Positions 1-22,112 of a DNA stretch of 62,912 nucleotides are shown here, piece by piece. The stretch's first letter is position 1. Each line of letters begins with the position of its first letter. Source of the DNA: an uncultured Aquitalea sp. (GTDB lineage Bacteria; Pseudomonadota; Gammaproteobacteria; Burkholderiales; Chromobacteriaceae); assembly GCF_945957525.1 (NCBI RefSeq), contig NZ_CAMFLA010000023.1, forward strand, positions 1 to 62,912, written 5' to 3'. The translations under genes were made by a program, and so were the position numbers. The notes beneath the pieces were generated by a model. The model saw only the letters and a program-made list of their open reading frames with translations, did not search any database and was not told the origin of the DNA.

Positions 1-634
1 CCGACCACAGCAATACGGGGAAGAAAAGCATGGGCGCGGGGAAAGGCCAGACGCGGCCGCTGCCGGTCATGCTGATCCACATGGCCAGCGCCACCAGCAT
101 GATCATGGCCAGTTCGATCAGACGTCGACGGTCAGGCCAGATGCCGGGCCGCGACAACGGCACCCAGCAGCACATGGCCAGTACGGTGCAGCCCCAGGCT
201 TCGGCGGCCCAGCGCAGCACATCCGGCAAGGCTTCGCGGAACAACATCAGGCTGCCCAGCAAAAACACCGGCGGCGCCGCCAGATACACCGAGGTTTCCA
301 GCAAGCGCCACAGTAGATAGGCAATGGAGGCGGGGTCGCCCTCCTCTCCCGCCAGCCGCATCAGCCGGACACCGGGCGCAACGGCGTACAAGGACAACAC
401 CAGACTGGCCAGCCAGGGCCAGGGCATCAGTTGAAAGGCGAGCGGAATAGCGGCAATCGGCCACCATGGCGCGAAACCGTCAAAGCCCCGGCGCAGCAGC
501 CACCAGGCATAAACAGCGTGCGGGAGGAATCCCGCCAGCGGCATGTCGCCCGGCGCAAGCCTGGGCCACAACAAAAGACTACTGGCAAAGCAGGCAAACG
601 CCAGCCAGGCCTCCAGCTTCCCCTTCTGTTTCAC
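1..634 (-). CDS. MASE1-like membrane sensor protein, N-terminal part (runs off left edge)
   Basis: On the minus strand an open frame begins with GTG at 634-632, with AAGGA upstream, and stays open for 211 codons to the window edge. It is rich in Leu, Trp, Ala and Pro and has several hydrophobic segments separated by short basic loops, for example GFLPHAVYAWWLLRRGF near the start and MLFFPVLLWS at the edge. The repeated hydrophobic pairs, a WAAEAWGCTVLAMCCWVPL segment and a final FPVLLWS resemble MASE1 sensory domains, which usually sit in front of GGDEF, EAL or kinase domains. The output domain is outside the window. That this is a real membrane protein follows from the sequence; MASE1 membership is inferred by eye. 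Confidence 0.55.
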   Translation of the reverse strand, partial: MKQKGKLEAWLAFACFASSLLLWPRLAPGDMPLAGFLPHAVYAWWLLRRGFDGFAPWWPIAAIPLAFQLMPWPWLASLVLSLYAVAPGVRLMRLAGEEGDPASIAYLLWRLLETSVYLAAPPVFLLGSLMLFREALPDVLRWAAEAWGCTVLAMCCWVPLSRPGIWPDRRRLIELAMIMLVALAMWISMTGSGRVWPFPAPMLFFPVLLWS

Positions 635-19473: not shown

Positions 19474-19788
19474 ATGGTAGAAGATGCTCTCTATCAGCGT
19501 ATGAATATTCTTCCCATCTCCTACATTTACTCCTACGCGTCAGCAGGAATACGGACAAGCCTTAGCGTGGAGGGCATCTCCGGCAAACCGGATGCCCGCG
19601 GCATGAACGGTGAACTCCGCCGCGAAATGGACGAAACCACACAATGGCACGAGGCGGTAACCCGCCGCGCGGGAGAAGGCGCTTTTGATCTGGGCAGCGG
19701 CGGAGCCGCTCCGCAGGATCGCCGCGCCCGCGCTTATCTTGCCGTGGCCGCCGCCCCGCGCGCTCCACTCATCGACGTGGCGGCTTGA
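19474..19788 (+). CDS. Hypothetical protein, 104 residues
   Basis: Open frame with GAGGAAG eight bases before the ATG and an AT-rich upstream stretch after the ppsR terminator. The N-terminus has a Tyr-rich stretch (ILPISYIYSYASAGI); the rest is hydrophilic and Ala/Arg-rich. No family recognised. The last codons overlap the candidate -35 of the trp leader promoter. It could be a real small gene or a chance frame in the trpS upstream region. Confidence 0.4.
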   Translation: MVEDALYQRMNILPISYIYSYASAGIRTSLSVEGISGKPDARGMNGELRREMDETTQWHEAVTRRAGEGAFDLGSGGAAPQDRRARAYLAVAAAPRAPLIDVAA

Positions 19789-19814
19789 CGGCCCGCCCGC
19801 CGCTGTGGTTTTAT
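19785..19814 (+). promoter_or_regulatory. Candidate promoter of the trpS leader
   Basis: TTGACG (19785-19790), an 18-base spacer, and an extended -10, TGG-TTTTAT (19806-19814). A start about seven bases later falls at 19820-19822, that is, on the leader-peptide ATG. This would make the leader mRNA leaderless, which fits the lack of a Shine-Dalgarno sequence. Confidence 0.45.
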
Positions 19815-19820
19815 GAAACG

Positions 19821-19874
19821 ATGAATTCCGCAAACGCAACCGCATCCTTCTTTTGGTGGTGGCGCCTCTTCTGA
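19821..19874 (+). CDS. Tryptophan leader peptide (trpL-like)
   Basis: A 17-codon frame encoding MNSANATASFFWWWRLF. Three consecutive Trp codons lie at 19854-19862, only four codons before the stop. It sits directly upstream of a rho-independent terminator and trpS. A ribosome stalled at the Trp codons leaves the antiterminator sequence (from 19875) free, while one that reaches the stop covers it. There is no Shine-Dalgarno sequence. An overlapping ATGAAACGATGA frame of three codons precedes it. This is the hallmark of Trp-tRNA-sensing attenuation. Confidence 0.85.
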   Translation: MNSANATASFFWWWRLF

Positions 19875-19917
19875 GGTAGCCCCGGCGATTGCACGCGCAA
19901 ACAACCCGGACGCTGCC
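19875..19917 (+). promoter_or_regulatory. Antiterminator helix of the trpS attenuator
   Basis: GGTAGC-C-CCGG (19875-19885) can pair with CCGG-AC-GCTGCC (19906-19917). The second strand includes the 5' arm of the terminator, so the two helices exclude each other. The left strand starts at the base after the leader stop codon, the position expected for ribosome-controlled switching. Confidence 0.65.
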
Positions 19918-19943
19918 CACAGGCGGATCCGGGTTTCGTTTTT
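19903..19943 (+). terminator. trpS attenuator terminator
   Basis: AACCCGGA (19903-19910) pairs with TCCGGGTT (19928-19935), followed by TCGTTTTT. It lies before trpS rather than after a gene, so it acts as an attenuator. The truncated RNA would be about 120 nt. Confidence 0.88.
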
Positions 19944-19959
19944 CCAGCACTCCACCTGA

Positions 19960-21018
<1,059 letters not shown>

Positions 21019-21080: not shown

Positions 21081-21776
21081 ATGCCGCGTATCGCACTGGT
21101 TGGCGACTACGACCCCGCAGTCCCCGCGCATCAGGCCATCCCGCTTGCCCTGCAACTAGCCGCCAAGGCCGAAAGCATGCAGGTGGAGATGGCATGGCTG
21201 GCTACCGACGCCATCAAGGATGCCGCCACGCTGCAGGGCTTTGACGCCATCTGGTGCGTGCCGGCCAGTCCATATCGCAGCATGAACGGCGCGCTGCTTG
21301 CCATCCGCCACGCGCGCGAACACGGCCTGCCCTTTCTAGGCACCTGCGGCGGTTTCCAGCATGCGGTGCTGGAGTACGCGCGCAACGCGCTGGGCTGGAC
21401 GGACGCCGAACATGCGGAAACCGCGCCGGATGCTGCGCGAGCAGTGATTGCCCCGCTGGCCTGCGCCCTAGTGGAAACCGAAGGCGAAGTACGTTTCAGC
21501 GCTGGCAGCAGGCTGGCCGCCGCCTATGCGCAAGCCGGCGCGCAGGAAGGCTACCGCTGCCGCTACGGACTGAACCCGGCTTTTGCCGAGGCGCTAACCC
21601 GTGGCCCCTTGCGCGCCACCGCCTTTGATGAAGAAGGCGAAGTACGCGGCGTCGAGCTGGACCATCATCCCTTTTTCGTCGCTACCCTCTTCCAGCCGGA
21701 ACGCGCCGCCCTGCGCGGCATCTGTCCCCCGCTGGCGCGTGCGCTGCTCTGCGCCGCTTCGGCCAACCTTGCCTGA
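21081..21776 (+). CDS. CTP-synthase C-terminal-domain-like glutamine amidotransferase protein
   Basis: 231 residues resembling the glutaminase half of CTP synthase. The nucleophile elbow GTCGGFQHAVLEYARN (Cys about residue 94) is intact. The catalytic-triad segment reads HPFFVATLFQPE, where CTP synthase has FHPE, so the histidine is glutamine. It matches the stand-alone family annotated as CTP synthase C-terminal-region-related (seleno)proteins; here the position carries an ordinary Cys. Function unknown. AAAGGAAC precedes the ATG. A 12-mer repeat is built into its last codons (A-S-A-N-L-A). The chorismate mutase gene follows 33 bases downstream. Confidence 0.75.
   Translation: MPRIALVGDYDPAVPAHQAIPLALQLAAKAESMQVEMAWLATDAIKDAATLQGFDAIWCVPASPYRSMNGALLAIRHAREHGLPFLGTCGGFQHAVLEYARNALGWTDAEHAETAPDAARAVIAPLACALVETEGEVRFSAGSRLAAAYAQAGAQEGYRCRYGLNPAFAEALTRGPLRATAFDEEGEVRGVELDHHPFFVATLFQPERAALRGICPPLARALLCAASANLA
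21757..21768 (-). repeat. GGTTGGCCGAAG repeat, copy 4
   Basis: Perfect, inverse orientation, in the last codons of the amidotransferase-like gene; extended form AAGGTTGGCCGAAG. Confidence 0.85.
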
Positions 21777-21809: not shown

Positions 21810-22112
21810 ATGGATTTCATCTACCAATGCCAAAGTCTGGATGAAGTGCGAGCGCAGATTGATCGCATCGACCAGCAACTGGTGGCGCTAATCGCCGAGC
21901 GCGGGCTGTATGTGGAGCAAGCCGCCGGCTTCAAACGCAACGACGCCGAAGTAGAAGGCGGCAAGCGGGTGGATCAGGTCATCCGCCGCGTCACCCGGCT
22001 GGCCGGCGAGCTGGGCGCGGACCCGCAGCTGACCGCCGAGGTGTATCGCACCATGATCGGCCATTTCATCCGCAAAGAGATGGCGGTGTTTCACCAGCGG
22101 CAATCGTCCTGA
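21810..22112 (+). CDS. AroQ-type chorismate mutase / PchB-like
   Basis: A 100-residue all-helical protein. R14, R31 and K42 fall exactly at the positions of the catalytic residues of Pseudomonas PchB, with the typical RIDQQLVALIAER and RVDQVIRRV helices. It converts chorismate to prephenate, or possibly isochorismate to salicylate and pyruvate, since PchB-type enzymes do both poorly or well. There is no pchA-like isochorismate synthase in the window, so chorismate mutase is the safer call. Cytoplasmic and dimeric in the family. AGGAG precedes the ATG at moderate distance. Confidence 0.85.
   Translation: MDFIYQCQSLDEVRAQIDRIDQQLVALIAERGLYVEQAAGFKRNDAEVEGGKRVDQVIRRVTRLAGELGADPQLTAEVYRTMIGHFIRKEMAVFHQRQSS

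Follow-up and report, generated by a model that had tools for sequence, protein, structure and literature searches.

The trpS gene of the DNA analysed here, a stretch of 62,912 nucleotides from an uncultured Aquitalea sp. (the window), is very probably controlled by an attenuator based on Trp codons in a short leader ORF, as judged by comparison with relatives. The leader ORF with its codons, the promoter spacing, both helices of the attenuator, and a further segment, called region 5, can all be read in the sequence, as can their conservation. Region 5, which pairs with the 5' half of the terminator ahead of the trpS ribosome-binding site, is absent from the initial annotation of this DNA.

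All the elements lie on the forward strand. A -35 element, TTGACG (19785..19790), starts 36 nt before the leader AUG and is followed, after an 18-nt spacer, by a -10 element, TTTTAT (19809..19814), preceded by TG and separated from the AUG by 6 nt. The leader ORF, MNSANATASFFWWWRLF (19821..19874), has 17 codons and a conserved core, ends with a TGA stop codon at 19872-19874, and contains three Trp codons, at 19854, 19857, and 19860. It is followed by region 2, the 5' strand of the antiterminator (19875..19885), a small hairpin within the antiterminator (19889..19900), and the antiterminator 3' strand (19906..19917), the hairpin being located by folding and the two strands by folding and pair counts. 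The 3' strand overlaps the 5' arm of an intrinsic terminator (19903..19943), with a stem of 19903-19910/19928-19935, a U-rich tract to 19943, and a fold energy of -20.0 kcal/mol. The terminator 5' arm and loop constitute region 3 (19908..19927), the partner of region 5 (19951..19970); both were delimited by the pairing between them in comparison with shuffled sequences, and region 5 also by a swap test. Region 5 is overlapped by an anti-Shine-Dalgarno arm, CGTTCTCC (19966..19973), which in the folds pairs with GGAGAACG (19986..19993), the segment containing the trpS Shine-Dalgarno sequence, and trpS itself, coding for a 340-aa enzyme of the TrpRS-II type, occupies positions 19996..21018. Downstream of trpS, a CTP-synthase C-terminal-like protein (21081-21776, over the cut-off of NF004836) and a chorismate-mutase-like protein (21810-22112, below the cut-offs of all families listed) are encoded.

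The initial annotation had placed the leader ORF, the terminator, and the antiterminator in these positions, in agreement with the sequence and the folds, and had described a TTGACG-18-TTTTAT promoter and a missing Shine-Dalgarno sequence, both of which were found on reading the sequence, with no Shine-Dalgarno motif upstream of the leader AUG. A simple scanner missed the promoter, its rule requiring an A at position 2 of the -10 element, and also the terminator, whose loop exceeds the length set by the rule. Taken by itself, the window leader has an unremarkable fold (z -1.64, 14 of 200 shuffles equally stable). The sequence shows the structural parts of a trp-type attenuator: a short translatable ORF with tandem regulatory codons ahead of the gene, an intrinsic terminator between this ORF and the gene, and, in silico, an antiterminator, mutually exclusive with the terminator, that a ribosome at the stop codon masks and one stalled at Trp codons leaves free.

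In the folds of the window leader, a ribosome placed at the stop codon hides region 2, and the remaining free RNA adopts the terminator (-23.1 kcal/mol). If the ribosome instead stands at one of the three Trp codons, whichever it is, while the polymerase has reached 19925, the most stable structure is the antiterminator (-19.0 to -21.4 kcal/mol), left free as the initial annotation had proposed. Once the full terminator has been transcribed, it becomes the minimum-energy fold despite the stalled ribosome (-25.0 kcal/mol). Since the terminator beats the antiterminator at equilibrium, the switch must be kinetic, with the antiterminator winning by forming first. We infer the following course of events. 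Transcription would begin on the AUG of the leader ORF. When charged tRNA-Trp is ample, the ribosome would reach the stop codon and cover region 2, and the terminator would form, releasing an RNA of ca. 120 nt. When charged tRNA-Trp is scarce, owing to hunger for tryptophan or to a blocked housekeeping TrpRS, the ribosome would stall on the tandem Trp codons and leave region 2 free to capture the terminator 5' arm before the 3' arm exists; with the antiterminator formed, RNA polymerase would continue into trpS. In the read-through mRNA, region 5 could then capture the terminator 5' arm and loop.

The conservation of the leader was followed in a set of TrpRS-II loci comprising 10 from the genus and the best 80 of a longer list, taken from named genomes, from which two duplicates (L034 and L035) were dropped to give 88. 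A leader was defined as an ORF of 10-27 aa with a WW[RHSL] or WRR core, no more than 420 nt upstream of the gene. It is present in 78 of these 88 distinct loci, among the matches listed, while such a core occurs in 32 of 4,400 dinucleotide shuffles and in 33 of 2,338 other pieces of the same loci; this conservation of the core excludes chance. Leader-bearing groups include Burkholderia, Paraburkholderia, Cupriavidus, Massilia, Herbaspirillum, Janthinobacterium, Vogesella, Silvimonas, and Crenobacter. The ten loci without a leader belong to Collimonas (five), Methylophilaceae (three), Noviherbaspirillum, and Undibacterium (one each); in Methylophilaceae the upstream sequence resembles, by eye, the end of a guaA-like gene. 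Spurious picks in Collimonas and Methylophilus (L057, L058, L067, and L108) were scored as no leader, and for L101 the nearer, WWHC leader was taken.

As the 88 loci are the most similar part of the longer list, an even draw of 120 genomes of the order was added, in which TrpRS-II was found at E<=1e-100 in 18 genomes (19 loci). A leader precedes 11 of these 19, the window among them, seven have none, and one has a single-Trp variant (L236, read by eye). Outside the order, no WWR leader was found in 17 more distant relatives chosen from the class search matches listed; three further loci fetched in that search (L217-L219) proved to be in-order paralogs, two of them with leaders. All these relatives are non-independent samples. 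Within the genus, the WWR leader is absent upstream of all ten housekeeping trpS genes examined, nine of which are preceded by reading frames with at least two scattered Trp codons and no WW, and an RNA model of the leader gave nothing better than E 0.6 on these upstream sequences. No Rfam family, Trp_leader and T-box included, matched the window between 19300 and 21200 at E<=1, by which a known Rfam RNA family or T-box is ruled out; over eight related loci there was one chance-level Rfam match, far from the leader.

The promoter is placed in the relatives much as in the window. In 53 of the 78 leaders TTGAC begins 34-37 nt ahead of the AUG (36 nt in the window); the 120-nt sequences preceding the 78 AUGs contain only four other occurrences of it. 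A rule for the -10 element (TTGACA-16..19-NANNNT, searched 3-29 nt upstream) could score 59 of the 78 leaders, and in 55 of these the element ends 6 nt (29 leaders) or 7 nt (26 leaders) before the AUG. Among the 19 unscored leaders are the window and 15 other Neisseriales, left out because their -10 element has no A at position 2; all 16 have TTGAC. Most of the 25 leaders without TTGAC have, by eye, TATACT 6-8 nt before the AUG. Since the sequence ahead of the leader AUG is thus taken up by a promoter, there is no room for a Shine-Dalgarno sequence, and this spacing points to a conserved leaderless start, with the transcript beginning at the AUG and, in the window, predicted to begin on its A at 19821. 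Neither trpS nor tryptophan occurs in the main text of the Burkholderia cenocepacia dRNA-seq paper (PMC4603805).

The antiterminator was examined in alignment A1, containing 53 of 71 prepared leaders (53 of the 78 in all). Of its 313 cells, 95.8% pair, and six are changed on both strands, a number reached by none of 500 shuffles (mean 1.0), but these double changes derive from few events and the covariation is thin. Further pair types are not above shuffles (4 vs 4.6), the RNAalifold consensus was weak (-4.7 kcal/mol), and when one strand was slid by -3 columns the covariation rose from 0.109 in register to 0.124, yet with only 70% of cells paired. The helix reads GAGCAG/CTGCTC in Silvimonas vs GGCGGC/GCCGCC elsewhere, and a swap test between lineages separated them poorly. 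A script that penalises 3:5 pairing, otherwise taken for the hairpin in Aquitalea, located a hairpin with a T-rich tail in each of the 78 leaders, though at the wrong place in a few. The misplaced cases, Janthinobacterium loci L066, L087, L096, and L105, were all kept in the region 5 counts. In these four loci and in L056 and L062 of the same genus, the leader ORF runs through the antiterminator strand (e.g. WWSRSLRAAT..), so masking of region 2 does not depend on the stop codon there. Taken over the relatives, the leader, the promoter spacing, and the helices are kept, and with them the proposal of the initial annotation, an attenuator working through a leaderless leader ORF with Trp codons, whose conservation it had held decisive, gains comparative support.

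Region 5 adds a third partner for region 3. In the window the 3:5 pairing amounts to -30.0 kcal/mol, where shuffles average -16.2 and none of 200 is as good; the complementarity is significant at p<=0.05 for 44 of the 78 leaders, and at p<=0.01 for 31. The sequences of regions 3 and 5 vary by lineage and the partners compensate, own partners outscoring both swapped-partner medians in 60 of the 78. In two swap tests with one value for each of 16 groups, drawn by hand from names and leader ends, this gave p=6e-5 and 5e-4. The weak group is Massilia and its kin (33 loci), where a foreign region 3 performs as well as the own one. On the strength of these comparisons the 3:5 pairing is likely to be functional in some way.

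What region 5 does is less clear-cut. In the window it overlaps CGTTCTCC, which would otherwise close the ribosome-binding site in GGAGAACG, and this suggests a second, translational gate. The site was folded in 66 of the 78 leaders, those with a recognisable site and a spacing of 20-180 nt. As a mean of 18 Neisseriales, openness of the site is 12% under a forced terminator and 51% under forced 3:5 pairing; among the 66 loci, forcing 3:5 makes the site more open in 31 and more closed in 14, with no change in the other 21 (Wilcoxon p=0.019). The window site is 0% open, none of 60 shuffles being as closed, and sites more closed than shuffles (p<=0.05) are found in 6 of the 18 Neisseriales, including the window, and in 9 of the 48 other loci. 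The 3:5 fold is lower in energy than the terminator fold in 12 of the 66 loci; the window is not one of them, its forced states being -33.2 kcal/mol (3:5) vs -35.9 kcal/mol (terminator), a gap of 2.7. These models would suit a translational gate in the Neisseriales and in some Burkholderia; Massilia and its kin do not conform to it. In Neisseriales the 3:5 pairing would disrupt the hairpin covering the trpS ribosome-binding site, so that the signal for transcriptional read-through would also open translation. That region 5 opens trpS translation is, on this modelling, a tentative proposal. An equally tentative scheme is that of a five-part switch, in which region 3 would choose between the 2:3 antiterminator, the 3:4 terminator, and the 3:5 pairing opening the ribosome-binding site, a leaderless attenuator thereby gating transcription and translation from one stall, and in which the released RNA may bind region 5 in trans. 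If region 5 works as proposed, a single stall would gate both processes; we know of no peptide attenuator doing so from one stalling event.

It is also possible, though we would not call it probable, that the attenuator holds and region 5 is no translational gate, the 3:5 pairing setting mRNA stability or processing or binding the released leader RNA in trans. The complementarity occurs also where the ribosome-binding site does not open, and the released RNA includes region 3, which makes trans pairing possible by sequence; the predicted effect on the site, however, follows the direction expected of a gate in the mean of the 18 Neisseriales and in several Burkholderia. Another alternative, in which the hairpin merely terminates the upstream gene and the presence of the Trp codons is accidental, is extremely improbable: leader cores of this kind do arise by chance, in less than 2% of comparable pieces, but the leader, the promoter spacing, and the helices are conserved across several families.

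A different question is what the attenuator responds to in practice. The leader might above all be an alarm for drugs blocking the housekeeping TrpRS, with TrpRS-II as an inducible back-up enzyme as in Streptomyces, a view we consider rather doubtful. TrpRS-II stands beside another TrpRS in 26 of 36 chosen genomes, and a Gln (LADAQALT) replaces the His of the genus's housekeeping enzyme (VADWHALT) at a position which we take to be important for indolmycin binding; as in the Streptomyces-type auxiliary TrpRS, there is a second, attenuated TrpRS gene with the active-site His replaced. On the other hand, in 7 of the 36 genomes no TrpRS other than TrpRS-II was found, and four of these seven keep the leader, so TrpRS-II is not always a back-up. 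Two Collimonas genomes and one Noviherbaspirillum genome have both enzymes and no leader; the notion that the leader occurs only where TrpRS-II is a back-up is ruled out by these three together with the four. A drug alarm and the control by tryptophan starvation described above are compatible, because both would act via uncharged tRNA-Trp.

The gene had been named trpS in the initial annotation, which holds (TIGR00233 over its cut-off) with the qualification that it is not the sole trpS of the cell but a second copy, of the TrpRS-II type: the genome also carries a 403-aa open frame for a TrpRS, the housekeeping copy, on contig C8. The PDB chains closest to the window's enzyme are 1yi8 and 2a4m, the latter bearing the name TrpRS II (418 bits, the next chain scoring 235 bits), both presumably from Deinococcus radiodurans. 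Besides this nearest homology to TrpRS II, the enzyme keeps two motifs which we take to be the class I signature motifs. The D. radiodurans TrpRS II, the closest solved structure, acts with a nitric oxide synthase, according to part of PMC9437257. That partner (PF02898) was found in none of 13 genomes, the control search finding it in 2 of 14 control genomes, and a partnership of the Deinococcus kind is thereby ruled out for those 13.

Similar leaders are found ahead of other genes. A model built from the leader alignment matched, under strict filters, 41 places in 34 of 300 genomes of the order, of which 37 were fetched and sorted by eye: 21 lie ahead of TrpRS-II or a close paralog, two ahead of a transporter (L119, the one scanned, belongs to PF00209, SNF), two ahead of a TrpRS-like protein that has lost both catalytic motifs, and six ahead of an unnamed protein of ca. 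170-207 aa, represented by L127, L138, and L139 in a mutual alignment. The remaining six look like chance. The motif-less TrpRS-like proteins (L129 in genome G470 and L133 in G619) stand behind a WYR leader attenuator, and in G619 the gene is convergent to an intact TrpRS-II gene. The sodium:neurotransmitter-symporter-like genes (L114 in G590 and L119 in G502) follow a GWWRA or GYWRA leader and a terminator, and are candidate tryptophan importers under the same control.

The window's genome contains another leader, YFYWYR (MVTFSVVYNVYFYWYRSSGGAKGC, G000:C20:48225-48373, locus L152), ahead of a gene for one of the unnamed proteins, ca. 200 aa long. Relatives of this protein occur in 60 of 61 genomes of the family, and a YW[YF]R leader precedes the gene in 29 of 30 fetched loci. 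By eye, these leaders also have a -10-like box ca. 7 nt before the AUG. Judging by these features, the YFYWYR leader at L152 and L171-L200 is apparently a second leaderless attenuator. Region 5 was not seen in this family (4 of 29 leaders at p<=0.05). The two copies of the protein scanned matched no Pfam family over its cut-off, and a profile comparison with TrpRS, at a probability of 1.3%, gave no support for descent from it.

The arrangement had been thought rare or undescribed for trpS in Proteobacteria; it turns out to be widespread in Betaproteobacteria, and attenuation of an auxiliary trpS is known in Streptomyces. For betaproteobacterial trpS, nothing on attenuation was found in the literature searched, among the matches listed; a comparative study of proteobacterial attenuators, reportedly by Vitreschak and colleagues in 2004, might mention it. 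In the trp attenuator of E. coli and in pheM-pheST, stalling at regulatory codons decides between antiterminator and terminator, and we know of no pairing just ahead of the ribosome-binding site of the structural gene in either. The E. coli trp and pheM leader ORFs have a Shine-Dalgarno sequence, whereas the window leader has none; pheST resembles the window in being a synthetase operon in which codon stalling chooses between the two structures. In the trp leader of Bacillus subtilis, the TRAP protein acts as the sensor, governing both the choice of terminator and a hairpin over the ribosome-binding site in the read-through mRNA. Terminator choice combined with such a hairpin is what it shares with the window; its sensor, unlike the one proposed for the window, is a protein and not the ribosome, and its sequence is unrelated.

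The trpL attenuator of Sinorhizobium meliloti reportedly has a leaderless leader ORF and is said to stand ahead of trp biosynthesis genes, not of a synthetase; no region 5 is known to us there. It is like the window's predicted leader in its leaderless Trp leader ORF and in the release of leader RNA and peptide. An auxiliary trpS, reportedly that studied by Vecchione and Sello, is found in Streptomyces. It shares with the window a second TrpRS gene, a leader peptide with Trp codons, and a transcriptional attenuator, and differs in belonging to another phylum and in its drug resistance, which for the betaproteobacterial enzyme is only putative. Release of the trpL leader RNA and peptide is described in part of PMC7298713, control of pheST by attenuation and predicted trpS attenuators of Streptomyces in part of PMC1262725, and ribosome-mediated attenuation of an auxiliary antibiotic-resistant trpS in Vecchione and Sello (2010), as it appears among the references of PMC4787780.

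The comparison leaves an attenuated auxiliary TrpRS as already known; new are the host group, a conserved, putatively leaderless start ahead of a synthetase, and region 5. A duplicated TrpRS would here be linked to a sensor of uncharged tRNA-Trp, with several families available for comparing and testing a leaderless attenuator, and the Betaproteobacteria would have a tRNA synthetase controlled through sensing by the ribosome, the counterpart of T-box control in Gram-positives.
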